Shown in pieces: positions 41,869 through 56,310 of a stretch of DNA of 64,000 nt. Under the pieces are notes generated by a model. The model did no database searches and was not told the origin of the DNA. It saw only the letters and a program-made list of their open reading frames with translations. Within the stretch, counting starts at the first letter, position 1, and the number at the start of each line of letters is the position of its first letter. Source of the stretch: Bacillus sp. RO3 (GTDB lineage Bacteria; Bacillota; Bacilli; Bacillales; Bacillaceae_B); assembly GCF_012911895.1 (NCBI RefSeq), contig NZ_JAAXCV010000023.1:62001-126000 (forward strand), given 5' to 3'. A program made the position numbers and the translations under genes.

Positions 41869-42653
41869 TTATCCACTTACTTTACGCATCCAAAACTCAA
41901 TCGGCCCTCTATTGAATATCTTTCGCCAATGTGTTGATAGGATGGTAGAGACAAGAAAGAAAATGACAGCCACCGTGATCGCAAATGGCAGGGTGTTATC
42001 CACTAAACCTCCAAACATAGAAAAGACAACCAAAACAAGAAAATGTCCCACATAGAGTGTAAGGGCAACCTGGCCTGTGTAAACAAGTGCATGGACTATG
42101 GAACTTTCATGGAATCTTTCAGATAAGTAGATACATATAAGGATAGCGATGATGGCAGTACTGGTGCTGGAAATCATGTAAAACATTGTTGGGGGCATCG
42201 GTTTGGTGGCGAATAAATAGGACGCGACTTCAGGTCCTGCCATTGAGTTGAAAGTTTGATCAGTGTGAAGGACGCCGCTTCCACTAACAAAAAGGTGATG
42301 ATTGTTCCGATCAACAGGTTGTTTCGGAATTTTTTGCGTTGGTAATCGAATCTTCCTAGCCACATACCTATGAATACGAATGCTACCCATGGGAAAATGG
42401 GGTGATATCCGTTAAAGAACAGGTTGCTTATAAATCCATTCGCTGTCCAAAATTTTTCATAATGTTGAAACGATGTATCCCATCCATACTCATAATTCAG
42501 TAGGAGCTGAAAAGCTTGTGAAGTAAGGACTGTAACAAGAGCTGCCAATAACAGCGTCCTCGAGGAAACGACGATAAAGAACGAAGCGATGAACATATAA
42601 AAGGCATAATAATGCAGAATGTCTGCGCTCCACTCCATGAGGAACAGGCACAT
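41869..42653 (-). pseudogene. DUF418-type membrane protein, truncated and frameshifted
   Basis: Minus-strand remnant in two frames. Frame one from 42653 (MCLFLMEWSADILHYYAFYMF) to about 42240 and frame two from there to 41869 (FNSMAGPEVASYLFATKPMP ... HWRKIFNRGPIEFWMRKVSG). The tail, with GPIEFWMRK, matches the C terminus of DUF418 / YeiB-like membrane proteins; the N-terminal third of the family, including the first helices, is missing, and a stop lies in frame just upstream (near 42680). Frameshift plus truncation mark it as dead. Confidence 0.75.
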
Positions 42654-43067
42654 GCCCAGAACGAATAAGAATCCTGACCGCCTCTAAATCATCCTTCGAT
42701 AGTCTTTAGAGAAAGCAGGATGTAGACATGCTTTTTTCGTCATATGAAAGCCATATAAGAACAGGATTGAAGGAAACTCCTTCGTTCGAATAATGATCTC
42801 GCCCGCCTACTATCAACGTTAAAAATTCTGTATCTTATCATTTTGTAACGGAAGATTATTCAGTCTCAGGCTTGCTGTATCACCAAGTAATTGGTAATAT
42901 CCCATGACCAGAACAAGTGCTTACCACATCGGTGAATGGAATGAGAAGATAGCCCGATACCAGTAGCTGCTAGTCTTAATAAGCGAATCTAAATAGCAGA
43001 CGTGCAGGTCAATTCAGGGTATGATGATAATGAACCCAAAAACGAAGATCTATTGTAGGTGAAAAAT

Positions 43068-43781
43068 ATGTTTTTAAAAAGAATCACACTGTTACGTGAG
43101 AATATCGGATCTACTACTGTCTATCCTTTTTCCATTCCCACAATCAGAAATTTCCATCAAATCAATTTAACAAGCAGAGTGACATTTTTCGTGGGAGAGA
43201 ATGGTTCAGGAAAATCTACACTCTTAGAAGCAATTGCTGATAAATGCGAATTTAACACGGCAGGGGGAGGTCGAAATAACACGTATGATCTGAATTCGTC
43301 TGAATCAGCGCTTGGAGAGTATATCAGGCTTTCATGGATGCCTAAAGTCTCTAAAGGTTTCTTTCTTCGGGCTGAGTCCTTTTATAACTTCGCTTCCCAT
43401 ATTGATGAGGTGGGAGCTCAGGAAGCTTATGGAGGGCGTTCTTTACACCACCAATCTCATGGAGAGTCCTTTTTCTCTCTCTTTACAAACCGATTTAAGG
43501 GAAGAGCCATCTATTTATTAGATGAACCAGAGGCAGCATTATCTCCTCAACGGCAGCTCTCATTTTTAAAGATCATACACGATTTGACGTTGTCTGGTGA
43601 TTGTCAGTTTATTATCGCAACCCATTCCCCCATTCTGTTGGGCTTTCCAAACTCAACCATCCTTAGCTTTGATAACGGCACCATTCGTGAGGTGCAGTAT
43701 GAAGAAACAGACCACTATCAAATTACGAAGTATTATTTAGAAAATCGAGAAAAGTTTATGAAACAAATCTTAGATGATTAG
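43068..43781 (+). CDS. AAA family ATPase (ABC-type fold, AAA_21-like)
   Basis: 237-residue single-domain ATPase. Walker A FFVGENGSGKST (~42-53), ABC-like signature HQSHGES (~140), Walker B IYLLDEPEAALSP (~158) and a switch histidine in IIATHSPILLG. Similar stand-alone ATPases are widespread in bacteria; some relate to OLD/RecF or to defence ATPases, but no partner gene (nuclease, TIR) is adjacent. ATG 43068 after TAGGTG; a GTG at 43059 lies in that ribosome site. Function unknown. Confidence 0.8.
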   Translation: MFLKRITLLRENIGSTTVYPFSIPTIRNFHQINLTSRVTFFVGENGSGKSTLLEAIADKCEFNTAGGGRNNTYDLNSSESALGEYIRLSWMPKVSKGFFLRAESFYNFASHIDEVGAQEAYGGRSLHHQSHGESFFSLFTNRFKGRAIYLLDEPEAALSPQRQLSFLKIIHDLTLSGDCQFIIATHSPILLGFPNSTILSFDNGTIREVQYEETDHYQITKYYLENREKFMKQILDD

Positions 43782-44450: not shown

Positions 44451-44936
44451 TTATATTTTACTTCTCTTAACTAATTCGTAATAAAGAACTGTAGTTGTTT
44501 GTACTATTAGAAAAACGATTACTGAAAATTTAATACTGTAACCATTTTGATACTCGATTACTTCCACTAGAGTAGATATCTTTTCCATTATTAAACCTAC
44601 TAATGTCCAAACTATAATATATGGGATGAAGCATGTTTTATTGATTTTGAATTTTTGGTAGAAGTATACAAAGAAATAGCTAAAAAATGCAAAAATAAAA
44701 TATGTTAACAAATCGAATAATTCGTATTTATTTGAATCATTAACCTTGTAAAAATCAATAAGGCCTCCACCAATCGTAAAATCGAATAATAAAGATATTG
44801 TAAACCCCCATGTTAAAAATAGTATTGTAGTTCTTCTGCAGAGGTTTCTTGGCAAAAACATAAAGGTACCAAAGGCAAACACGAGCGCAACAACGATGTA
44901 AATTTCATTCTTGTTAAATGATTCCCACAATATCAT
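44451..44936 (-). CDS. CBO0543-family membrane protein
   Basis: 161-residue protein with about five hydrophobic helices. The central pattern FDFTIGGGLIDFYKVND followed by YELFDLLTYF and a FSYFFVYFYQKF helix fits the uncharacterised CBO0543 family of Firmicutes membrane proteins. It starts two bases after the stop of the upstream membrane gene, with GGTGAG as ribosome site, so the two are coupled. Composition is very A/T-rich. Function unknown. Confidence 0.65.
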   Translation of the reverse strand: MILWESFNKNEIYIVVALVFAFGTFMFLPRNLCRRTTILFLTWGFTISLLFDFTIGGGLIDFYKVNDSNKYELFDLLTYFIFAFFSYFFVYFYQKFKINKTCFIPYIIVWTLVGLIMEKISTLVEVIEYQNGYSIKFSVIVFLIVQTTTVLYYELVKRSKI

Positions 44937-44938
44937 TT

Positions 44939-45406
44939 TTATCTCACCGCATTCTTTGTTAATTTATAAAAAATTTCATAAGAAATAATAGCGATTATAA
45001 AAAGTAACAAGTAGTATATAGCGCTATAACTATAATTCCAATTAATCTTTTCAGTTATATTAAGAACTTCAATTGTTACACTTAGACATAATAATAATAT
45101 TAAGGATGAAGTAATGATTAGCCCTTTTTCAACGAATGTTTTAGCCTCTATAAAAAAGTTCAGATGAACCAGAATAAGAAGTGGAGTAATGATACTTCGA
45201 TTTAGAAGGTATGCTGTATAAGGTAAAACTTTCTGAGTAACAGTTAATAACTCCATCTCATCAATAACAATCCATGAAAAGTTAATATTTACTATAAGTG
45301 TTATTAGAAAAACAAATGTGTTCTCGAAAATATCGAGTCTTTTTTTTATTACGAAAAAAAAGGAAATAACTAACCATGTGAGGGAGAAAAACACTACAAG
45401 TTCCAT
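44939..45406 (-). CDS. Small polytopic membrane protein, unknown
   Basis: 155-residue protein with about five transmembrane helices and basic cytoplasmic ends (KKR after helix one; final KLTKNAVR). A clear ribosome site AAAGGAG precedes the ATG. Paired with the downstream CBO0543-like protein and of similar size, it may be a distant relative or partner. I do not recognise a family. Confidence 0.6.
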   Translation of the reverse strand: MELVVFFSLTWLVISFFFVIKKRLDIFENTFVFLITLIVNINFSWIVIDEMELLTVTQKVLPYTAYLLNRSIITPLLILVHLNFFIEAKTFVEKGLIITSSLILLLCLSVTIEVLNITEKINWNYSYSAIYYLLLFIIAIISYEIFYKLTKNAVR

Positions 45407-46438: not shown

Positions 46439-47725
46439 TTAGTCAATGGATTTTTCCAACATTGTTGAATAAGTATCCCAACATTTAAGAGCTGATTCAT
46501 GATCATTCAGAATGGAATAAACCTTACTCAACTTTACAAGCACCTCCTTTTGTATAGGGGAATCACTTGTGATAGTTAACGCATTTCTATAAGCCCTAAT
46601 AGCATCAGCATGCTCTCCTTCTTCACAAAAAGTGCTCCCTAATAGAAGTAAGAATTTACCATGAAGCTTTTGGGTGGAAGATTGTGAAGCTTTTAGGAAA
46701 TCAGCATATAATCTTTGAACGTCTTTATATTTCTCTAAATGGAAGGAGGTTAAAGCCATCTCGTAAAGAGTATTTAATAGACCTTTGCTATCATGAATTT
46801 CATCGTAGAGTTGGTTTGCTTTTTTCAGAAGCATCAATGAGTCTATGAACTCGTTCTGAAACCTTTTAAGAATTCCTAAATTGGTATAGGTTCCTGCAAT
46901 ATTCAATACATCATCTGAACCCTCAAAAAATAACAGTGCCTTATTGTAAGATGAGATGGCACTTTCGTATTTTGCTGTTCTTCTTTGACAGAGACCTAGT
47001 ACCATATATGCTCTACCTGTATGATAATAAATATTTGATTTACTAGTAATGGTAATAGCTTGCTTTAAAAATCTAATAGCAGAATAGTATTCTCCAAGTT
47101 TAGCATGAGCAATACCCAAATTGATTAATAAAGAAATCTTTTCAATCCCATAAATTCGATAAATTACCGATTCATCGTAAGCATTATCAAGTATCCTAAA
47201 GGCTTCATGAACTCGATTTTTTTCAAGAAGAATATGAACTAAATGATTTATGCTTCTTAAGCGTTCATCCATCATTTTAGTTTGTGAATATAATTCACAA
47301 CTCAATTTGTAAGATTCAATCGCATTATCATCTTGCTGTTCTAATTTTCCTTTACAGAAATAATAAAGTGCTTGTTCTGATCGAGTTAGATTATCAACAT
47401 ATGGCTCAATCACATTTATCTCGATTTTAGCTTCTTTTACCTCTTCATTTATAACTAAATATTCTAAAGAGGCTAATGTTTTTTGTAAATCTAACTTATA
47501 TGAAGGTGTCTCTCTTTCCTCAATAAAATCATTTACATCACAATTTAGGCGGTCACTAAGTTTTTTCAGTAATTTAAATGAAGGTTGAACAGAGCCTTTT
47601 TCTATTTGGCTAATATAACTACGATTCACTATTCCTTTCGCTAGCTCACTTTGAGTAAGTTTATTTTTGGTGCGAATTTGTTTGATTTTCATTCCTATAG
47701 AGTTTATTTCTACCACCCTTTCCAT
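46439..47725 (-). CDS. RRNPP-type quorum-sensing regulator (XRE HTH + TPR)
   Basis: 428-residue transcription factor. Residues ~8-65 form an XRE helix-turn-helix (IGMKIKQIRTKNKLTQSELA, then SYISQIEKGSVQPSFKLLKKLSDRL). The rest is a tetratricopeptide array from about 85 to 425, with typical repeats (ALYYFCKGKLEQQDDNAIESYKLSCELY, GRAYMVLGLCQRRTAKYESAISSYNKAL, GTYTNLGILKRFQNEFIDSLMLL). This is the PlcR/NprR/Rap-like layout in which the TPR binds an imported pheromone. A pro-peptide gene starts 110 bases away in divergent orientation. Start uncertain: ATG 47725 or ATG 47692; neither has a good SD. Confidence 0.82.
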   Translation of the reverse strand: MERVVEINSIGMKIKQIRTKNKLTQSELAKGIVNRSYISQIEKGSVQPSFKLLKKLSDRLNCDVNDFIEERETPSYKLDLQKTLASLEYLVINEEVKEAKIEINVIEPYVDNLTRSEQALYYFCKGKLEQQDDNAIESYKLSCELYSQTKMMDERLRSINHLVHILLEKNRVHEAFRILDNAYDESVIYRIYGIEKISLLINLGIAHAKLGEYYSAIRFLKQAITITSKSNIYYHTGRAYMVLGLCQRRTAKYESAISSYNKALLFFEGSDDVLNIAGTYTNLGILKRFQNEFIDSLMLLKKANQLYDEIHDSKGLLNTLYEMALTSFHLEKYKDVQRLYADFLKASQSSTQKLHGKFLLLLGSTFCEEGEHADAIRAYRNALTITSDSPIQKEVLVKLSKVYSILNDHESALKCWDTYSTMLEKSID

Positions 47726-47765
47726 AAATAGGTTGACAGTAAGTGACAAACTGTTTATATTGGTT

Positions 47766-47809
47766 TTGTGAGTAAATTATAACATTTATTATAAAATGTT
47801 AAAATGTTA
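47766..47809. promoter_or_regulatory. Divergent promoters with AACATTT operator palindrome
   Basis: TAACATTT (47780-47787) and AAATGTTA (47794-47801) are a perfect inverted repeat, and AAATGTTA recurs at 47802-47809. The palindrome overlaps an extended -10 for the regulator on minus (TGTTATAAT; TATAAT complement at 47776-47781). It also overlaps the plus promoter TTGTGA (47766-47771), spacer 17, TTATAA (47789-47794). This is the expected place for the RRNPP regulator to bind and control itself and the peptide. Confidence 0.65.
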
Positions 47810-47835
47810 AAAAAAATAACAAAGGAAGTGTTCGT

Positions 47836-47973
47836 GTGAAAAAAACAAAATATTTAATCTATTCTTTAATTATGGGGATACTCATTTTTGGTGCCTGCAG
47901 TTCTGTAACATCTGATAGCTTTGCTGATGAAGAGTGGCCAAGAAGCAGTGTGAAAATAGATTCGAAGTTATAA
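47836..47973 (+). CDS. 45-residue exported pro-peptide, candidate pheromone
   Basis: GTG start eight bases after AAAGGAAG. Residues 1-6 are basic (MKKTKY), 7-20 a hydrophobic core (LIYSLIMGILIFGA), then Cys21, and a hydrophilic tail ending EEWPRSSVKIDSKL. This is the architecture of Phr/PapR/NprX-type pro-peptides: signal sequence plus short C-terminal segment processed outside the cell. The Cys at the cleavage region also allows a lipopeptide reading (FGAC is a poor lipobox). Divergent from the XRE-TPR regulator and upstream of the biosynthetic genes. The mature form is not predictable from sequence alone. Confidence 0.72.
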   Translation: MKKTKYLIYSLIMGILIFGACSSVTSDSFADEEWPRSSVKIDSKL

Positions 47974-48118
47974 AAATATCATTGAAGGTTAGTGATTAGT
48001 ATACAGAAAACTACTTCACGAATATCCCGCAACATTACTTACTTCATAAAACCTTTCCTCTACCATTTAATATGTTGAAAATACAAACACGTTAAATGAT
48101 CGTCAAAAAATATTTAAT

Positions 48119-48152
48119 ATTTGTATAGATCGATTCTATTATCAATACAAAT
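48119..48152 (+). promoter_or_regulatory. Inverted repeat ahead of the biosynthetic operon
   Basis: ATTTGTAT (48119-48126) and ATACAAAT (48145-48152) are perfect complements, 18-base spacing, ending 20 bases before the first gene. A/T-rich hexamers that could serve as -10 lie between and after the arms (TATTAT, TTATAT). Could be an operator distinct from the AACATTT palindrome. Confidence 0.45.
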
Positions 48153-48172
48153 ACTTATATAAGGTGATGTAA

Positions 48173-48502
48173 ATGATAAAAGAAATGTCAAAAATGACGA
48201 GCTTTGAAGAAGTACTCCTGGATTTCGCAAAAGCAAAATCAGATAAGTATGGAATTGTTAAGTTTGATGATGACTCAGATTACCATTATATCATTGTCAT
48301 AGAATCGAAAGATATTGACCATTATACGATAGAGTTAATCGACCTTTATGGCTATCCAGTTCCAATAGCTTGGTTTGAACCAGGAAGATACAAGACATTT
48401 GAACAGTGTGGTTTATTTGAATGTCATACAGTAGAACCCCAATTAAAATCACTGGCTGCAGTCGTAGATTTACATTTAGGTACAAGACATTATTTTGAGT
48501 GA
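48173..48502 (+). CDS. Unknown 109-residue protein, first gene of biosynthetic operon
   Basis: Acidic soluble protein (MIKEMSKMTSFEEVLLDFAKAK ... GTRHYFE), predicted mixed alpha/beta, with two Cys in FEQCGLFECHT. No signal peptide or membrane segment. AAGGTGATG precedes the ATG. Its stop overlaps or abuts the aminotransferase start, so it belongs to the operon. I recognise no family; it might be a small accessory protein of the pathway. Confidence 0.7.
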   Translation: MIKEMSKMTSFEEVLLDFAKAKSDKYGIVKFDDDSDYHYIIVIESKDIDHYTIELIDLYGYPVPIAWFEPGRYKTFEQCGLFECHTVEPQLKSLAAVVDLHLGTRHYFE

Positions 48503-48513
48503 GGTACGAGTCA

Positions 48514-49848
48514 TTGATCAACCAATCCTATCTAATAAAGCCTGAAATTAATAAAATATACGAACAAGTTGAATATGGTAAAGGCGTGTATCTTTATACA
48601 AATGAAGGAAAGAAAGTTTTAGATGCATGTTCAGGTGCCATTGTTGCAAACATAGGGCACGGAGTTGAAGAGATAGCAATGGTAGCATATGAACAGGCAA
48701 AAAAAGTTTCCTTTACGTACCGTACACAATTCACGACGGAACCAGCAGAAAAACTGGCTGAAAAGCTTGTAAATAAAGCTGAAGGGATGGATTATGCTTT
48801 TTTTGTAAATAGTGGGTCCGAGGCAACTGAGATGGCGTGCAGATTAGCCATACAACATTGGCAGGAAAAAGGTCAGCCTTTTAAACAAAAAATCCTATCT
48901 CGAAAGATCAGTTATCACGGTACTACTTTGGGAGCACTATCGATATCGGGGCATTTCCCTAGAAGGGCACGGTTCAATTATTTATTGAAGGATTTCCCGT
49001 CTGTTCCTACTCCCTATTGTCATCAGTGTCCATTTGGGTTGAACTATGAAGCCTGTGGAATGAGATGTGCATATGAATTAGAGAAATGTATCAATGAATT
49101 TGGTAGTGAAAGTATCGCTGCATTTATCGTAGAGCCTATCATTGGAGCTTCAGGGGCAGCTATCACCCCTCCAGATGGGTACTACCAAGTGATAAAAAGT
49201 ATTTGTGAGAAATACGACATTTTACTTATTACTGATGAAGTGATGACTGGTCTGGGAAGAACGGGTAAATGGTTTGCTATTGACCACTGGGGAGTTTCTC
49301 CAGATATAGTAGTTATTGGAAAAGGGATAAGTGCAGGATACTCCCCCATTGCTGGAATATTGACCACAGAAAAGGTAATGGAACCGATTAAAGATGGAAG
49401 CGGTGTCAACGTTTTTGGTCATACTTATAGTGGTAACCCGCTTTCAACAAGCATATCACTTGCTGTTCTGGAATATATGGAAAAGCACTCTCTATTGGAT
49501 AACGTGAATAGGATGGAGCCTCTATTAGACAACTATTTAATGAAATTAAAGAAGAAGTTTAACATAATAGCAGATGTCCGTGGAAAAGGCTTGTTAAAAG
49601 GTATTGAATTTGATGAGGAACGTTATAAAGATAGAAATATTACAAAAGAAGTAGTAGATGAAGCTTATCGGCAAGGTCTTTTGATTTATCCCGCTAAAGG
49701 AATTTCGACGATCCATAATGGGCAGGCCATTATTATTGCCCCACCTTTAACGATCTCAGAAGTTGAATTAGAAGAACTAATGGTGTTATTAGAAAAATCA
49801 TTTGATTCGGTCATGGCTAAATATGAGGAGGAAGTTTATGAATTTTAA
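48514..49848 (+). CDS. Class III PLP aminotransferase
   Basis: 444-residue fold-type I transaminase of the omega-amino-acid / acetylornithine class. PLP features: FFVNSGSEATEMACRLA (phosphate site), YHGTTLGALSIS, Asp in LITDEVMTGLGRTG, and Schiff-base Lys in VIGKGISAGYSP. A Cys-rich insert (CHQCPFGLNYEACGMRCAYE) also occurs in other members. Likely installs an amine on a keto-acid or aldehyde precursor. TTG 48514 has GAGG nine bases upstream; GTG 48499 is an alternative without SD. Its 3' end overlaps the next gene by 11 bases. Confidence 0.88.
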   Translation: MINQSYLIKPEINKIYEQVEYGKGVYLYTNEGKKVLDACSGAIVANIGHGVEEIAMVAYEQAKKVSFTYRTQFTTEPAEKLAEKLVNKAEGMDYAFFVNSGSEATEMACRLAIQHWQEKGQPFKQKILSRKISYHGTTLGALSISGHFPRRARFNYLLKDFPSVPTPYCHQCPFGLNYEACGMRCAYELEKCINEFGSESIAAFIVEPIIGASGAAITPPDGYYQVIKSICEKYDILLITDEVMTGLGRTGKWFAIDHWGVSPDIVVIGKGISAGYSPIAGILTTEKVMEPIKDGSGVNVFGHTYSGNPLSTSISLAVLEYMEKHSLLDNVNRMEPLLDNYLMKLKKKFNIIADVRGKGLLKGIEFDEERYKDRNITKEVVDEAYRQGLLIYPAKGISTIHNGQAIIIAPPLTISEVELEELMVLLEKSFDSVMAKYEEEVYEF

Positions 49849-51004
49849 TTGGAATGAAGAACAATTATTGATACGAAATAGATTTTCTATACTGTCTGCC
49901 ACAATAAACCGAAATTATAAGGAGTGCTATTCCCGCAATCAATTTGATGGTGAATCATGGGAAGTGATTACCAATGAAGGAATTTGGAAATATCCTGTAC
50001 CTGAAAAATATGGAGGGTTTGGAAAGTCATGGTGGGAATTTGCAGCCGCTTTAGAAGGGTTAGCATCAACCTCCAAGGATTTAGGCTTTTTACTTTCCAT
50101 GATTGCGCACATCGGATGTTTAAGAGTCCTAATGAAACATGGAACAGAAGAGCAAAAACATTATTATTTAGATTTATTAATGAATGGAAAAGTAGGTGCT
50201 ACGGCTATTACGGAAACATCAGGAGGTTCAGATGTAGCCCGCATATCTACAAGCGCCGCTTATAATAACTTAAACCTTTTAGAACTTAATGGTCATAAGA
50301 GCCATATTACAAATGCTCCGATTTCGGACATTGTTGTCATGGTAGGTCGAATACCGGAATTAGGAAAAAGAGATATCACTCTGTTTATTCTTGAGAAAGA
50401 GATGGATGGACTTACCTTTGGAGATAGAGAGAGTATGTTTGGAAATAGGACCAGTCCTACTGGAGATATCTACTTAAGAAATGTTCAAATCCATAAGGAG
50501 AATATCCTTGGGACACCAGGTGATGGACTTAATACACTCTATAATATGATTTCACTTGATCGATTACTTTATGGTTTGATTGCAGCTTCCTATATCGAAC
50601 CATTATTAAACAAAAGTCTAATATTCTCGAATGATAGGACAGCATTTAAAACGCCGATTTCTAACCATCAATATATTCAGAAAAAATTGACAGACATGAA
50701 GATGAACATTGAGAAATCACGCTGGATTTCCTATGCAGCTTTAGATCGACTCATAACTGGTCATGAAGAAGCTTCACTTCTATGTTCTATTGCCAAATTC
50801 ACTGGAACGGAGGCTCTTGTTGAAACAGCACAGGATTTAATGCTGATCCATGGCCATCAAGGGTATATGGAAGGAGAAATATCACAACTTTTACAGGATG
50901 CTGTTGGAACCAGAATTGCAGGGGGGACAAGCGATATACAAAGGGTAAATATATTTAATCAATTACAAAAACTACATTCCGTGGCCCGGGAGGTTGTTTC
51001 ATGA
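49838..51004 (+). CDS. Acyl-CoA dehydrogenase-like flavoprotein
   Basis: 388-residue acyl-CoA dehydrogenase family member. FAD/substrate segments ATAITETSGGSDVARIST and SHITNAP...VMVGR are present, as is the C-terminal GGTSDIQRVNIF. The usual catalytic Glu (YEGT) is replaced: the motif is IAGGTSDIQR, and the alternative base position used by isovaleryl/long-chain enzymes (LERL) reads LDRL here. So either Asp acts as base or the protein performs a different reaction. GAGGAGG precedes ATG 49838. Probably desaturates or oxidises a thioester-bound precursor. Confidence 0.86.
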   Translation: MNFNWNEEQLLIRNRFSILSATINRNYKECYSRNQFDGESWEVITNEGIWKYPVPEKYGGFGKSWWEFAAALEGLASTSKDLGFLLSMIAHIGCLRVLMKHGTEEQKHYYLDLLMNGKVGATAITETSGGSDVARISTSAAYNNLNLLELNGHKSHITNAPISDIVVMVGRIPELGKRDITLFILEKEMDGLTFGDRESMFGNRTSPTGDIYLRNVQIHKENILGTPGDGLNTLYNMISLDRLLYGLIAASYIEPLLNKSLIFSNDRTAFKTPISNHQYIQKKLTDMKMNIEKSRWISYAALDRLITGHEEASLLCSIAKFTGTEALVETAQDLMLIHGHQGYMEGEISQLLQDAVGTRIAGGTSDIQRVNIFNQLQKLHSVAREVVS

Positions 51005-51396
51005 ATGCGTCTGTTGGAAAGTCAGTTATCATAACTCACATTGTAGAAGAAACGGACTTGGCAACAAATTGGCAGAATGATGTTCCGGTACTTGCGACTC
51101 CTATTTTGCTATGGTTATCAGAGATTGCGTGTATGAAGGCAGTTGAACAAGAGTTATCTTCTGACATGATGACAGTAGGGTATTCTCATCATTCTAGGCA
51201 TGTTGCAGCCAGCATATTAGGTGAAAAGGTGAAAATCACTGCCACTTTAAACCGCGTGGAGAACAAAAAGCTTTTTTTTAATGTAGTGGCTCATGATACC
51301 AATGGGGAAGTCTTTAAAGGAGAACATGAGAGAATTATCATAGATAAAAATAAGTTTCTAGAGAAGTTATCCGATAAGGAAAAAGTAAATGGATAG
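51001..51396 (+). CDS. FlK-like hotdog thioesterase
   Basis: 131-residue single hotdog-domain protein resembling fluoroacetyl-CoA thioesterase FlK. The FlK triad positions appear as Thr33 (LATP), Glu41 (LSEIAC) and His67 (SRHVAA), followed by VKITATLNRVENKKLFFNVVAHD and a GEHERIIID strand. It could release an acyl-CoA product of the neighbouring dehydrogenase or detoxify a toxic acyl-CoA. Overlaps the dehydrogenase by four bases and the transporter by eight. Confidence 0.8.
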   Translation: MNASVGKSVIITHIVEETDLATNWQNDVPVLATPILLWLSEIACMKAVEQELSSDMMTVGYSHHSRHVAASILGEKVKITATLNRVENKKLFFNVVAHDTNGEVFKGEHERIIIDKNKFLEKLSDKEKVNG

Positions 51397-52579
51397 TTCA
51401 ATAAGACTTCCGCTTTTCATAAAGGTCCTTCTCGGGTCAGCATTTATGATGAATGCCGGAACATTTATGGTTATACCATTCTTAGTGGTCTACCTTTCTA
51501 AAATTCTACAGTTTAACCATGTGGAAGTAGCTACTATATTGTCAGCGAATTTAGTATTTGGTCGTTTATTGCCTTTTATTACAGGATTAATTGGAGACAG
51601 AATCAGCCATCGAGTTACCTTGATAATTGGGGTGTTTTTGAGAGGTATTGGATTTTTTGGATTTGCTATATTCGATTCATTTATTGGATTGTTTGTGACT
51701 TCTGCCCTGATAGGGATAGGGGGCGCTTTCTATGACCCTTCTGTTATGACCATCTTTGCAAGTCAAAAAGAAAAAGAAAGAAAACAATCATTAACCTATT
51801 TAAATCAGGCTCTAAATGCAGGTGCAATATTGGGCCCACTATTTGCAGCGGGGCTCCTTTTGTTAGATCCCGCTGTTCCTTTCTTAGTAAGTGGAGTCAT
51901 CCTCTTAGCCATTGCAATGGTGTTAGGTTATTTTTCAAAACACATTCACACGAATAAAAGTAAAAACACATTATTTGGAAGCATCAAACAAATCATAGGG
52001 AACCGAAAGTATCTTTTTTACTTAGTAATCATGTCCTTCTATTGGATGGCATTTTCGCAACTTTCAGTGTCAATACCGTTATATGTATTTGATCTCACAA
52101 AGGATGAAAAGATGATCAGTTTGGTATTTACAGTGAATGGAGTCACGGGATTGATAATGATGTTCTTCTTAAGAAATGTATTTACGAAATATACAACTAT
52201 GACGTTGATTCAAAAAGGGGCATTAATAAGTGGAATAAGCTTTTTGTTCCTTCCACTTGTGAATAGTTTCCCGTGGCTTTTATTTATGATATTTATTTTC
52301 ACAGTTGGTGAGACTTTGATTCTCCCTAGTTCTGATATGGCCATCGCTGATTTCAGTAATGATGAAAATACAGGCGGTTATTATGGTCTGTTTGAGCTTT
52401 CCTTTGCAGGAGGGACGATCATTGGAAATTATCTTGGAACGTTCTTTATGGGGATAAATTCAGTTTACCCGTGGTTTATATATGGTGGAATGTGTATGGT
52501 AACGTTTTTCCTTATGAAATTACTTGCAAGACATTCTTCCCAAGTAAATATTAGTAAAATGAATAAAATGGAGGTTTGA
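51389..52579 (+). CDS. MFS transporter, probable product exporter
   Basis: 396-residue major facilitator with about 12 transmembrane helices. The helix 2-3 loop motif GLIGDRISHRVTLI is the MFS motif A; motif near helix 4-5 (GIGGAFYDPSVMTIFAS) fits the drug-efflux MFS groups. Located between the tailoring enzymes and the ligases, it is the only transporter of the cluster, so export of the product and self-protection are the likely roles. Confidence 0.86.
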   Translation: MDSSIRLPLFIKVLLGSAFMMNAGTFMVIPFLVVYLSKILQFNHVEVATILSANLVFGRLLPFITGLIGDRISHRVTLIIGVFLRGIGFFGFAIFDSFIGLFVTSALIGIGGAFYDPSVMTIFASQKEKERKQSLTYLNQALNAGAILGPLFAAGLLLLDPAVPFLVSGVILLAIAMVLGYFSKHIHTNKSKNTLFGSIKQIIGNRKYLFYLVIMSFYWMAFSQLSVSIPLYVFDLTKDEKMISLVFTVNGVTGLIMMFFLRNVFTKYTTMTLIQKGALISGISFLFLPLVNSFPWLLFMIFIFTVGETLILPSSDMAIADFSNDENTGGYYGLFELSFAGGTIIGNYLGTFFMGINSVYPWFIYGGMCMVTFFLMKLLARHSSQVNISKMNKMEV

Positions 52580-52581
52580 AT

Positions 52582-53991
52582 ATGAATAAGTTATTAACTA
52601 AGGAACTGCCTTCTGATGTGTCAATCGGTCAGAACAATTCAAGAAAAATAATTATTGGAAATGTCGACGGCGAGTCTCTTGTAGGTGATATTTCAAGACA
52701 TACCCCAGAAATGTTTGCAGCTGCATCAATCATTGCTAATCGATTAATCTGGTTTGTGGAAGATCATGATATCCTTCTTCTTCCTTATCCAGTGTCTTCC
52801 GAATTCCTGAACTATTTATGCCGGCTTATGAAAGTGGATCCAGGAACAGTAAAGCACGTTTTACCTCCTAAGAGAGACCCCTATGAAACAAAATTACTAC
52901 GATATGATGTCCTATCAAATCATGAGTTACTTGCTGAACTTCAACACCTCACAAATGAATATAAGGAGTGGGGGGTACTGGCTTATTATCATGATCGAGC
53001 TGTGGCTGAATTGACAGAAAGCATAAGTACAAGAATTCATCCGAATGTAAATGAGTTTTTACTACAGGGCGGTTCAGAAGTATTAAATAGCAAAACGGAA
53101 TTTAGAAGGATAGCGGCTTCTCATGGGATTCCGGTTCCTCCTGGTTACAATTGCTATTCTCAAAGTGAATTATTCAAACTAATTTCAGACTGGATTGACC
53201 AAACAGGCTCCGTCATTGTAAAGCAAGATGTGAATGCAGGAGGAGACGGGAATATTGTTGTGACCAAAGATACATCCATTAAGAACTCTAAAGGAGCGAC
53301 TGAAACTCTTCATATTACAGAAGAAAATTGTATCGAAGATATCACGCGGTATTTATGGGAACGTTTAATAGGATATAGAAATAATTCACTAGTCGTTGAA
53401 GTGTATTACCAAACTCTAGCGGTTTTCTATTCTGAATATCATATTGGAAGGCGGGAACTTAAGCCAACCCTCCTGAACTTTGGTGACATGAGAATGGAGC
53501 CGGTTTGGAATGGATTTGAAATACCTACTGTATCGATGAACGCCTATAGTCTGGGAGAATTCATTTCTAATTCCACCATATTAGCAGACATTGCAAGAGA
53601 AAGAGGATACGAGGGAAATATCAACATTGATGCGTTTCTTACCATAGATGGCCAGTTACTTTTCAGTGAAATTAATGGAAGAAATGGTGGGTGTAGTCAT
53701 ATTCACCATGTAGCTCAGAAGCTTTATGGAGTGAATTATGCTGATCACTATATGATTCTTACCAGGAATAAAATAAAAGTTGGTCCCGACTTTCAAGTGC
53801 TTTTGAGGATGTTAGAAGATGAATGCCTGCTTGTACAGGGAAGGGAGCAAGAGGGAGTCATTATCCTGGCAGAAGATATCGGAAGGACCGATACTATCGA
53901 ATATATGGTGGTCGGGAAAGGTAAGGAAAGGGCCCTGGCTCTTGAAGAGAGAGCTCTTGTTGTATTTGATAGGAGCGTGGAGTCATGTTGA
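52582..53991 (+). CDS. PGM1-like pre-ATP-grasp peptide ligase
   Basis: 469-residue ATP-grasp protein of the pheganomycin PGM1 group. The N-terminal pre-ATP-grasp domain (~20-110) has the family string FAAASIIANRLIWFVEDHDILLLPYPVSSEFLNYL. The ATP-grasp core (~170-390) shows VIVKQDVNAGGDGNIVV, acceptor loop, NINIDAF and the metal/ATP motif SEINGRNGGCSH. A small C-terminal domain follows (~395-469). PGM1 and related ligases join amino acids or peptides as acyl-phosphates. ATG 52582 after GGAGG. Its end overlaps the next ligase by seven bases. Confidence 0.85.
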   Translation: MNKLLTKELPSDVSIGQNNSRKIIIGNVDGESLVGDISRHTPEMFAAASIIANRLIWFVEDHDILLLPYPVSSEFLNYLCRLMKVDPGTVKHVLPPKRDPYETKLLRYDVLSNHELLAELQHLTNEYKEWGVLAYYHDRAVAELTESISTRIHPNVNEFLLQGGSEVLNSKTEFRRIAASHGIPVPPGYNCYSQSELFKLISDWIDQTGSVIVKQDVNAGGDGNIVVTKDTSIKNSKGATETLHITEENCIEDITRYLWERLIGYRNNSLVVEVYYQTLAVFYSEYHIGRRELKPTLLNFGDMRMEPVWNGFEIPTVSMNAYSLGEFISNSTILADIARERGYEGNINIDAFLTIDGQLLFSEINGRNGGCSHIHHVAQKLYGVNYADHYMILTRNKIKVGPDFQVLLRMLEDECLLVQGREQEGVIILAEDIGRTDTIEYMVVGKGKERALALEERALVVFDRSVESC

Positions 53992-54875
53992 TTGGTATTC
54001 TAGGATGGGATCATGAAGAATTTGAATCCGTTCAATTAGGAAAGGTTTCAAAAGAACTGGGGTATGACACCTTACTGTTTTCTTTACAAGATATCGAAAT
54101 GGACATTTCAGCGTCCCATAAGAGCATTCATGTCTTCGGTACAGACCTTAAAGAGTTTGATGTTATTATTTCAAGAGCGCAACTTAGAAAGGATTACTAT
54201 CAAGAAGACTTACAGGTACTTTATAGCTTAAATGAATATGTAGACTGTTTAATTGACCATTATTCTTCGTTTACTTTATCCGAAAGTAAACTATTAACTT
54301 ACCAAAAGCTGGCCAATCATGGTTTCACAGTTCCGGATACATTCTTATGTAAGGATGTTGGATCTATTAGAAGGATTTTTGATCATTACTCCCAAATCGT
54401 CATTAAGCCATCTTTCGGCTATGCTGGTCAAGATGTTGAAAAGATAGAAAAAAGTTTTGAACAGAATGAAAAGTTAATAGAAACATTACTTCATAAATAT
54501 GGATCGGTCCTCGTGCAGGAATTTATCCCACATCCAGATGGAGATATTCGTGTTACCACGCTTGGAGATGACGCAATCGTATGCTTCAATCGACTTCCCA
54601 ACGATAAAACATGGAAAGCAAACGTAGGAATGGGTGCTACCATTGAGCGTATCACTCCTCCACAAGAAGTAGTAGATTTAGGAATAGAAGCAGCAAAATG
54701 TATAGGATTGCAAATATCAGGGGTTGATATTGTAAGAAGTAAGGGAAAATACTATATATTTGAGGTCAATAATTGTCCAGGATGGTATCCATTGCAGGAA
54801 GATGGGGAAGAAGTAGCTCGGGAAATCATTCGCTATTGCGTAAATAAAGTAAAGCCAAAGGAACGTGTCTTATGA
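53985..54875 (+). CDS. RimK/LysX-type ATP-grasp ligase
   Basis: 296-residue ATP-grasp ligase in the RimK superfamily. Pre-domain ~1-95 (ILGWDHEEFESVQLGKVSKEL ... DVIISRAQLRKDYY). ATP-grasp core: TYQKLANHGFTVPDTF, VIKPSFGYAGQDV, VLVQEFIPHPDGDIRVTTLG, and the metal-binding SGVDIVRSKGKYYIFEVNNCPGW. Family members add glutamate or other amino acids to a carboxylate. Overlaps both neighbouring ligases, so expressed in a fixed ratio with them. Confidence 0.86.
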   Translation: MLIGILGWDHEEFESVQLGKVSKELGYDTLLFSLQDIEMDISASHKSIHVFGTDLKEFDVIISRAQLRKDYYQEDLQVLYSLNEYVDCLIDHYSSFTLSESKLLTYQKLANHGFTVPDTFLCKDVGSIRRIFDHYSQIVIKPSFGYAGQDVEKIEKSFEQNEKLIETLLHKYGSVLVQEFIPHPDGDIRVTTLGDDAIVCFNRLPNDKTWKANVGMGATIERITPPQEVVDLGIEAAKCIGLQISGVDIVRSKGKYYIFEVNNCPGWYPLQEDGEEVAREIIRYCVNKVKPKERVL

Positions 54876-56236
54876 AAATAAATGAGACTGAATCCCATCC
54901 ATCCTTTATTCACAGGCTGACAGAAGAAGAAATAATCAGTATTCAAAAAGGTTTATCTAGTAGAGTAGAGAAGAGTCATCTATTTCAATATGAGAAAGAT
55001 ATCAATGTATACAGCATTCCGATATTGATGTCTAAAGAAGAACATGAATCCCTCTCGGAAGACTGTTCAGAGATATTGAATCTTATCATGAAGATACCAG
55101 GCACTTTATTTGAAAATGATATAGAAGCCTATTTAGACTTACTTGGCTATGATAGTGGAGAGAAGCAGTTACTCATGTCCTTTCATGACTTTTCATCATC
55201 GGACTGCTGGTTTTCCAGGGCGGATCTAATTGAATCCGAGGAAGGTTTTAAGCTGATTGAGTTTAATGTGGATAGCAGTGTTGGAGGGATGGAAACTGGT
55301 CAATTAAGCAGGATCATTCAAGGATTATATGAACAGAAGTTGAAAGATTATCACTTCCTCGATCCTTATGAAGGAATGATAAAAGAGTTTGAGGAGTTAT
55401 TTTCTAAATTAGGATGGAAAAAAGAAGAAAAGACAATAGGGATCATTGACTGGTATCCCGATATGCTGGAGTATCTACAAGACCATAAGAACTTGGCGAG
55501 GATCTTAATGGAGAATGGATTTAATCCAGTGATATGCCATCAAGAGAATATGATTAAAAAGGGGAATGAACTCTATTTAGGTGATAGGAAAATAGATATA
55601 TTATACAAATTCTTCTTGCTATCTGATGCTAAAAAGAGTATCTCTCACTTGACTGATCTTTTACATCCGGTTCACACCAGTGATGTTAGAATGATCAATA
55701 GCTTATATACAGATATTTACAGCAATAAAGGTAACTTGGCCTTGTTATGGGATGCACGCTACTTCAAGACCTTACCAGTTGTACAACAGAATCTGGTTAA
55801 AAGGTATATTCCGTGGACAAATTTCTTCACACCGAAATCCACTATTGTCCATAGAGGAAGTCTAATTTCTTTAAAAGATTTTGTGTGTAATAATAAGGAC
55901 TCACTAGTTTTGAAACCGATTAAGGGATATGGGGGGAATGGTGTTATTCTAGGTTGGACAGTATCACCAGAAGAGTGGAAAGCGGAAATTGAAATCATCA
56001 TGAACAGGGATGAACCGTATATCGTACAGGAAAGAGTGGAATCTATACCAAAAGAATTACCCTATGTAAAAGATGAAAAGGTTGAATGGTTAGATACTGA
56101 TTTAAATTTTGGTCTTCTTTTATGTAAGAATGCACCGAATGGATTATTTGTAAGAGGAGTACCTAAAGAGGCAAATACTCTTACAAACATTAATAAAGGA
56201 GCAAGCATTGGAACAGCATTAATAAAGAAAATATAA
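54872..56236 (+). CDS. ATP-grasp ligase of glutathionylspermidine-synthase-like (permuted) type
   Basis: 454-residue protein, last of the operon. Features resemble circularly permuted / GSP-synthase-like ATP-grasp enzymes: SRADLIESEEGFKLIEFNVDSSVGGMETG (~115-142, metal/ATP acid in EFN), a nucleotide-lid region, VLKPIKGYGGNGVILGW (~345-361) and YIVQERVESIPKE. The order of EFN before KPIKGYGG is permuted relative to RimK. Likely forms a second or third amide bond. The tail contains NTLTNINKGASIGTALI, similar to the ends of other such ligases. Confidence 0.78.
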   Translation: MKINETESHPSFIHRLTEEEIISIQKGLSSRVEKSHLFQYEKDINVYSIPILMSKEEHESLSEDCSEILNLIMKIPGTLFENDIEAYLDLLGYDSGEKQLLMSFHDFSSSDCWFSRADLIESEEGFKLIEFNVDSSVGGMETGQLSRIIQGLYEQKLKDYHFLDPYEGMIKEFEELFSKLGWKKEEKTIGIIDWYPDMLEYLQDHKNLARILMENGFNPVICHQENMIKKGNELYLGDRKIDILYKFFLLSDAKKSISHLTDLLHPVHTSDVRMINSLYTDIYSNKGNLALLWDARYFKTLPVVQQNLVKRYIPWTNFFTPKSTIVHRGSLISLKDFVCNNKDSLVLKPIKGYGGNGVILGWTVSPEEWKAEIEIIMNRDEPYIVQERVESIPKELPYVKDEKVEWLDTDLNFGLLLCKNAPNGLFVRGVPKEANTLTNINKGASIGTALIKKI

Positions 56237-56310
56237 ATTTGATTTTTTTTAATGTTAATGGGCTCCAAAATTAAAATGGAAATCCTTGAATACTCTTTGA
56301 ACGTTTTGAG

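Follow-up and report, generated by a model that had tools for sequence, protein, structure and literature searches.

A regulator-linked island of Bacillus sp. RO3 that joins a TdaE-like flavoenzyme to three ATP-grasp ligases, a candidate pathway for a small peptide-like metabolite

The DNA analysed here, referred to as the window, is a stretch of 64,000 nucleotides from Bacillus sp. RO3 (contig NZ_JAAXCV010000023.1, positions 62,001 to 126,000), and all positions given for it are counted from its first letter. Between 48173 and 56236 it holds an operon of eight open reading frames (ORFs) on the forward strand, all of them open. Overlaps of 4, 11, 4, 8, 7 and 4 bases are found at six of the seven junctions, in line with an initial annotation of the sequence alone, which had most of the genes overlapping by 4-11 bases. 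The families proposed there for genes 2 to 8 also fit the profile matches in Pfam and NCBIfam. The first gene (P0001, 48173..48502) encodes a protein of 109 amino acids without a family, and is followed by a class III aminotransferase (AT3; P0002, 48499..49848; PF00202), a flavoenzyme with the N, M and C domains of the acyl-CoA dehydrogenase (ACAD) fold (P0003, 49838..51004), a hotdog thioesterase of the FlK type (P0004, 51001..51396; PF22636) and a putative exporter of the major facilitator superfamily (MFS; 51389..52579; MFS_1). The last three genes encode ATP-grasp ligases, one of PGM1 type (P0006, 52576..53991), one of RimK/MptN type (P0007, 53985..54875; RimK PF08443) and one that is circularly permuted (P0008, 54872..56236; PF03738). 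No non-ribosomal peptide synthetase (NRPS) or polyketide synthase was recognised by eye among the ORFs of 40-64 kb, in agreement with the initial annotation.

A second copy of the operon, together with a divergent regulator, is found in Bacillus sp. CH30_1T (L006, L050), and the comparison of the two is informative about the genes. The start of the flavoenzyme is ATG 49838 and not TTG 49802, because in CH30_1T, too, the protein begins with MNFNW downstream of an AGGAGG box. The PGM1-type ligase could start at TTG 52576, which would make the seventh junction a 4-base overlap with the MFS gene, or at ATG 52582, which leaves a gap of 2 bases; the latter is more likely, since its equivalent is the first available start in CH30_1T. 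All eight genes are genuine and uninterrupted and evolve under purifying selection, with no internal stop in any of them and with dN/dS values against CH30_1T, from gene 1 through gene 8, of 0.11, 0.12, 0.10, 0.15, 0.12, 0.16, 0.15 and 0.30, calculated with the CH30_1T ACAD start placed one codon off. These values, the lack of stops and the recurrence of the AT3-ACAD-FlK-PGM1 series in another phylum make the operon more than a product of chance. Gene 1 has no match in Pfam, NCBIfam or the plasmid search, it was found in the window's own genome only among 299 genomes of the order, it is present just in the two Bacillus copies among everything that was searched, and its structure model is poor, with a predicted local distance difference test score (pLDDT) of 48.8.

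Upstream of the operon and on the reverse strand (46439..47749) lies a gene for a transcriptional regulator with an HTH_3 domain and TPR repeats according to Pfam, an architecture like that of RRNPP regulators such as NprR, and it is 73% identical in CH30_1T, where it adjoins the same operon. Between the regulator and the operon there is an ORF of 45 codons on the forward strand (47836..47973) with, as judged by eye, a basic start, a hydrophobic signal-like segment and a polar tail. It is also present in CH30_1T, with the motif ADEEWPR unchanged, behind the same two promoter hexamers. These belong to a promoter-like TTGACA-17-TATATT (11 of 12 positions) at 47733..47761 on the forward strand, which points at the small peptide and the operon. 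We base the promoter on its score and conservation, because the whole scan gave fewer sites than shuffled sequences did (39 versus a mean of 46.2). The regulator ORF, in the form listed, shares its first codons with this site, and the true start of the regulator may be further in. A regulator of this kind with an adjacent small, secreted-looking peptide matches the layout of RRNPP systems, which we take to be that of PlcR-PapR and NprR-NprX, and the peptide is a candidate for a secreted pheromone. With the regulator as query, a search of the PDB at 1e-8 for kinship to PlcR and NprR structures matched only engineered TPR proteins. The conserved peptide had been overlooked in the initial annotation, and with the regulator and the peptide added the coordinates widen to 46439-56236.

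A conserved small ORF just upstream of ligase genes could also be something else, namely the substrate of the ATP-grasp ligases in a pathway for ribosomally synthesised and modified peptides, comparable to pheganomycin, where PGM1 works with a precursor peptide. Another PGM1 relative does adjoin a gene annotated as a pheganomycin-family precursor. The signal-like segment at the start of the ORF, and its position between a divergent regulator and the operon, speak against this, and we find the precursor decidedly improbable.

The operon DNA is 87.8% identical to that of CH30_1T over 8114 columns (48150-56255), and the DNA on the regulator side is 77.9% identical over 1509 columns (46478-47973), where the alignment stops at the stop codon of the small peptide. 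The outer limits of the DNA that can be aligned are thus 46478..56255, and the piece 47974-48149 inside them is too diverged. No further alignable DNA was found in the stretches compared, and because nothing else aligns, the two copies must be at different sites, with the regulator and the operon as one unit. They form a single island, which apparently is mobile and apparently brought the operon in by lateral transfer. The GC content is 0.32-0.38 at 46-56 kb versus 0.41-0.50 across most of the window, and low values are also found on both sides of the island (0.30 at 44-46 kb and 0.34 at 56-58 kb). Of 36 genomes of the genus, two have the PGM1-type ligase, one of them being the window's own. 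In a draw of 397 genomes from the order it was found solely in the window's own, CH30_1T not being among the matches of that draw. The sole other genome marked as the same species lacks it, a genome that is 10% contaminated. A search of the genus for an empty insertion site, made with the downstream neighbour in the window, gave only fragments outside the window's own genome.

The flavoenzyme was first annotated as acyl-CoA dehydrogenase-like, which is right for the fold, but the class has to be corrected and the kinship with TdaE had gone unnoticed. A tree of 37 ACADs, from which over-long matches of L085 and L086 and near-identical duplicates were left out and for which L087 was not collected, divides them with a branch supported by 100/100 into 15 sequences (12 from cassettes, two TdaE and one from Burkholderia arboris) and 22 ordinary and RedW-type ACADs. 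By its sequence P0003 is thus placed in the TdaE clade and apart from ordinary ACADs, a placement that suggests O2 chemistry. When plasmids were searched for P0003, 65 records matched, 58 of them from Phaeobacter, three from Tritonibacter, two from Streptomyces and one each from Rhodococcus and Burkholderia. The match in Phaeobacter inhibens, WP_014881725.1, is 40% identical over the full length (155/387), and the available part of the paper on TdaE gives this accession as the characterised enzyme (PMC8283759). As described there, TdaE acts on its acyl-CoA in three ways, by dehydrogenation, by cleavage of the thioester with oxygen derived from O2 and by epoxidation of the ring, so that CoA is removed without a thioesterase; TdaD was inactive on both of the two CoA esters tested, and the homologues named are alpha-, beta- and gamma-proteobacterial (PMC8283759). 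In our own alignment 21 columns are common to the cassette ACADs and TdaE and rare in other ACADs, and the Glu of YEGT-type ACADs is exchanged for Gly in cassette enzymes and TdaE alike (374 in the numbering of the 400-amino-acid frame). Among 295 genomes of the genus of the Streptomyces locus L007, an ACAD of the P0003 type (E <= 1e-95) was found in three, two of which were already among the loci compared below.

It could be argued that a protein with the ACAD fold only desaturates, and that the FlK enzyme hydrolyses the thioester, so that the two-module pathway proposed below would be kept with an alpha,beta-unsaturated (dehydro) amino acid unit in its product. The closest solved structure to P0003 by sequence is a prolyl-ACP dehydrogenase, the FlK Thr/Glu/His positions (presumably the FlK triad) are kept in P0004, and a hydrolytic thioesterase would be redundant if the flavoenzyme itself cleaves off CoA. 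The 100/100 clade, the unusual columns in common with TdaE and the Gly at the YEGT-type Glu speak against it, and we consider desaturation alone to be possible, if the less expected outcome.

The same kinship brings a tropone-type product to mind, where the flavoenzyme, like TdaE, would salvage a seven-membered phenylacetate shunt product to which amino acids would be coupled by the ligases. A paa-type operon lies elsewhere in the genome of the window, and all 13 genomes searched, that of the window among them, have PaaA/PaaC homologues, versus 4 of 14 control genomes, a weak sign as such genes may be common throughout the genus. However, the operon lacks the shikimate, TdaB, PatB and second PaaZ genes: none of these was recognised among the eight genes and the regulator, in the four flanking ORFs that were scanned, or by eye in the rest of 40-64 kb. 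The versions in Streptomyces and Rhodococcus moreover carry a beta-ketoacyl-ACP synthase III (KASIII), of no use to the tropone route as far as it is laid out in the available part of PMC8283759. We regard a tropone as unlikely. In B. arboris the TdaE-like gene is directly followed by an FlK-type frame, and a frame further along looks by eye like a chorismate mutase/prephenate dehydratase, so a tropone-type cluster, too, seems to contain a TdaE-like/FlK pair. P0004 itself shows no similarity to TdaD of Phaeobacter by BLASTP.

Relatives of the operon were collected by scanning one genome per species with three PGM1 seeds and two short peptide patterns. This gave 11 loci, which together with three plasmid loci make 14 that were compared by tblastn, since a simple gene caller missed genes in high-GC genomes (e.g. 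the AT3 of L009). The AT3, ACAD, FlK and PGM1 genes occur together in 9 of the 14, in CH30_1T and in eight Streptomyces loci (L004, L007, L009-L012, L015 and L016), of which one is a plasmid of S. rimosus. All eight have a KASIII and, downstream, a gene of the MFS cluster, and in five a gene of the CGNR cluster (named by one member) is also found downstream; the S. rimosus record is annotated with one. The identities to the window are 36-40% for AT3, 47-50% for ACAD, 40-50% for FlK and 31-33% for PGM1, and the MFS proteins of the window and S. rimosus, the sole pair compared, are not alike by BLASTP. Neither the RimK-like nor the permuted ligase was found at any of the eight by tblastn. A plasmid of Rhodococcus sp. 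NBC_00294 carries KASIII, a class III aminotransferase (27% identical to P0002), ACAD (43%), an FlK-type protein (34%), CGNR and MFS genes. PGM1 was matched in 20 plasmid records, and this plasmid is not one of them, its chromosome not having been searched. Streptomyces phaeoluteigriseus (L013) has FlK beside PGM1 with no AT3 or ACAD upstream, a reduced or rearranged cassette, and L008 is cut at PGM1 by the end of its contig. The loci of Paraburkholderia (L003), Rhizobium (L005) and Dactylosporangium (L014) have none of the three partners.

The aminotransferase matches NF005375 at 611.5 bits (cut-off 535), and its nearest relatives are Bacillus aminotransferases that adjoin CoA-transferase genes, an arrangement we take to be YodT-like. 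The cassette aminotransferase of Bacillus groups with two such Bacillus-type enzymes (100/99), away from those of the Streptomyces cassettes, and a single clade for the two is rejected with a p-AU (approximately unbiased test) of 0.012. The PGM1 of Bacillus groups with that of Paraburkholderia (92/94), and a clade that unites it with the PGM1 of the Streptomyces cassettes is likewise rejected, with a p-AU of 0.040 that becomes 0.034 when the longest branch is removed. Both tests were run after the trees had been seen and with few non-cassette rows (3 and 7); the AT3 test omitted the second aminotransferase of L009, the AT3 tree had duplicates removed, and the Rhodococcus aminotransferase, at 27% identity, was below the threshold for collection and is in neither AT3 tree. 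A shared descent of the whole cassette in Bacillus and Streptomyces was rejected on these values. They suggest that the aminotransferase and PGM1 have been recruited separately in the two, and if that is right, the same four functions have been brought together more than once.

Other relatives of the aminotransferase are found on plasmids of soil bacteria, one of them from an atrazine factory, and some stand beside CoA transferases, which might indicate a catabolic or detoxification operon where the ligases are incidental. An exporter and three ligases in one operon, its rarity in the genus (2/36) and the order (the window's own of 397), and the recurrence with PGM1 in Streptomyces make this very improbable.

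Three unlike ligases in a coherent small-molecule operon was the central claim of the initial annotation, and it has stood. P0006 matches PreAtp-grasp PF18604 at 72.1 bits (cut-off 27.5), and PGM1_C, weakly present at best, is just under its cut-off (20.6 versus 22.5 bits, E 0.00032), so we call it PGM1-type by sequence kinship. Its matches in the PDB to PGM1 (3wvq, E 3.7e-37) and to the peptide ligase 8ynd (E 4.6e-40) are nearly full-length. P0007 is nearest to MptN/RimK-type ligases. P0008 matches the GSP_synth preATP-grasp family PF03738 at 30.2 bits (cut-off 29.3) and is remote by sequence, 87% identical to CH30_1T and 16-26% to 26 homologues, with 11 columns invariant over 28 sequences. 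The structure model of P0008 (pLDDT 86.9) matches glutathione synthetases, Cp1B and glutathionylspermidine synthetases, and predicts a eukaryotic-type glutathione/glutathionylspermidine synthetase fold. Of 398 Bacillota genomes, 23 have a related permuted ligase, counting that of the window, and in the other 22 it is at most 29% identical. In genome-wide searches, four of the 14 genomes or records have a permuted ligase, namely CH30_1T, Dactylosporangium and two Streptomyces, where it is located elsewhere in the genome (28% identical for L009 and 24% for L008). The genome of L009 (Streptomyces sp. NRRL F-6492) also has an 873-amino-acid frame in which an ATP-grasp_4-type ligase is fused to a P0008-related permuted ligase, 27% identical (L018 121-2742 / L049 4075-6696).

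RimK-like and permuted ligases are found at 2 of the 14 loci, in CH30_1T and in Dactylosporangium fulvum. The latter has the same three ligase classes as the window within about 12.5 kb, PGM1 and RimK adjacent and the permuted ligase about 9 kb off, and its RimK is 36% identical, while the other five matches among 296 actinobacterial genomes are 27-29%. We had considered that the set of three ligases was unique, and this is ruled out by Dactylosporangium. Around its ligases are MutE, PhyH, MaoC, HpcH/HpaI, class I/II aminotransferase, desaturase-like and MFS genes, and the trio thus recurs with another acid-building set. That ligases of these classes might sit in unrelated contexts elsewhere, as the initial annotation had cautioned, holds in part, namely for PGM1-type ligases at six of the plasmid loci inspected. 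The Dactylosporangium genes make up a separate cluster of about 15 kb (L048 8389 to L014 12226), with the glutamate mutase MutE, a MaoC/mesaconyl-CoA hydratase and an HpcH/HpaI lyase.

Among the plasmids, PGM1-type ligases stand by an isochorismatase with anthranilate synthase or 3-deoxy-D-arabino-heptulosonate 7-phosphate (DAHP) synthase genes in Curtobacterium (P20, L107), where a second ATP-grasp gene is present, and in Streptomyces anthocyanicus (L104); both are possible aromatic amide pathways. On Paraburkholderia pBN2 (L003), in Rhizobium (L005) and on a plasmid of Rhodococcus sp. AQ5-07 (L106) they stand beside 2-oxoglutarate/Fe (2OG-Fe) dioxygenases, and L106 adds a carrier protein, an ACAD and an AMP-binding gene.

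On one flank of the island there are clpP (by eye) and tRNA-Arg, and on the other a gene for an EF-G-binding protein as well as sigma-54, cggR, gapA and pgk, the last four by eye. Adjacent to the tRNA-Arg (41607), two overlapping frames on the reverse strand (41869-42653) appear, judged by eye, to be parts of a single membrane acyltransferase-like protein, probably a broken gene. Within and close to the low-GC stretch beside the island are an AAA_15/AAA_21-type ATPase and two small membrane-type proteins without a Pfam match (43059-43781, forward, and 44451-45406, reverse). In CH30_1T, two APH-family phosphotransferase-like genes and a GNAT acetyltransferase lie next to the island and outside the common unit (L006 14892-17361).

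We hypothesize that the locus is a pheromone-gated mobile island of two modules that makes a small, exported, peptide-like metabolite with neither NRPS nor ribosome, a reading to which we give a probability of about one half. We read it as an acid-building module joined to an exchangeable ligase module; the first of these occurs with one ligase at eight Streptomyces loci and without PGM1 on the Rhodococcus plasmid. The first module, the aminotransferase, TdaE-clade flavoenzyme and FlK thioesterase, would build an unusual acid from a short beta-oxo-acyl-CoA, supplied by KASIII in Streptomyces and by host metabolism in Bacillus. The flavoenzyme would oxidise C2, perhaps with loss of CoA, FlK would free or edit thioesters, and the aminotransferase, which we assume to be of the beta type, would place nitrogen at C3. 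The result would probably be a 3-amino-2-oxygenated or 2,3-epoxy acid free of CoA; the former is our guess because it accounts best for the presence of KASIII, a TdaE-like enzyme and an aminotransferase of beta type together. In the second module the PGM1-, RimK- and glutathione-synthetase-type ligases would join this acid to amino acids with up to three amide bonds, and we infer, like the initial annotation, two or more successive ones. The MFS protein would export the product, and the regulator with its secreted-looking peptide would tie expression to cell density. An alpha-oxygenated beta-amino acid that caps a short amide chain is an unproven guess at what this product might be.

Several points weigh against this. 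The order inside the 15-sequence TdaE clade is weak and does not resolve the cassette ACADs as one group: the Bacillus and Streptomyces enzymes hold together at only 80/44, and that of Rhodococcus falls outside TdaE (94/93) and is flagged as a long branch. The position of the Glu in WER-type/RedW-like ACADs is Asp (253) in the Bacillus and Streptomyces cassette rows displayed and Gly in TdaE, so the chemistry of P0003-type enzymes may differ from that of TdaE. The separate recruitment of PGM1 is borderline in the clade test (p-AU 0.040). The Bacillus operon has no KASIII or CoA-activating gene, and the C2-oxygenated beta-amino acid draws on the kinship of the aminotransferase and on TdaE using a beta-oxo (enol) acyl-CoA. 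As TdaE removes CoA itself, according to the available part of PMC8283759, FlK may have a clean-up role, or may indicate that P0003 is limited to dehydrogenation.

A bolder version can be imagined, which we think is rather doubtful as a whole. A TdaE-type dioxygenase would have moved from the tropone pathway to C2-oxygenate beta-oxo- or beta-amino-acyl-CoAs and so give warheads like those of bestatin and amastatin, made of a 3-amino-2-hydroxy (or epoxy) acid; one PGM1 ligase would make a dipeptide in Streptomyces, three ligases a tetrapeptide-sized inhibitor under pheromone control in Bacillus, and Rhodococcus would export the free acid. On two or more occasions the set would have formed around one and the same oxidase-thioesterase pair.

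If the two-module reading is true, TdaE-type flavin chemistry extends to Gram-positive bacteria and non-tropone substrates, and there is a route to capped small peptides that needs neither NRPS nor ribosome. The split between acid-building and exchangeable ligase modules across Bacillus, Streptomyces, Rhodococcus and Dactylosporangium is a practical search rule, and the pheromone-like pair provides a handle for inducing the cluster.

Each enzyme family in the island is already known. As the initial annotation supposed, no described pathway with this set was found in the literature searched, nor were the island's gene combination, Gram-positive TdaE-clade clusters without tropone genes or a linked pheromone-like peptide, a weak negative as few subscription papers were covered. 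The likeness to TdaE lies in the full-length identity of 40%, the common clade and the B. arboris gene order; the difference is that no tropone genes were recognised around P0003, that FlK is not similar to TdaD, and that the hosts here are Bacillota and Actinomycetota and not the proteobacteria named in the available part of PMC8283759. P0006 resembles PGM1 of pheganomycin and 8ynd over nearly its full length, but no pheganomycin-type precursor was recognised here and there are two further ligases. Ketomemicin clusters likewise combine a PGM1-type ligase with an NRPS-free pseudopeptide, and they are defined by an aldolase, a dehydratase and a glycine-C-acetyltransferase; the operon has none of the three and does not belong to that pathway. 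The P0008 model has the fold of Cp1B (9cjn), a ligase we believe to be fungal, and of glutathione and glutathionylspermidine synthetases, at 10-18% identity among the matches listed. Bestatin and amastatin, for which no biosynthetic cluster was found in the literature searched, begin with a 3-amino-2-hydroxy acid and continue with one or three amide bonds, which at the level of structure would fit one or three ligases. The Streptomyces KASIII-AT3-ACAD-FlK-PGM1-MFS loci, of which no description was found in that literature either, differ by the added KASIII, a single ligase at the locus, a CGNR gene at most of them and an aminotransferase and PGM1 of other branches, and have the four enzyme families in common with the island, in the same order.

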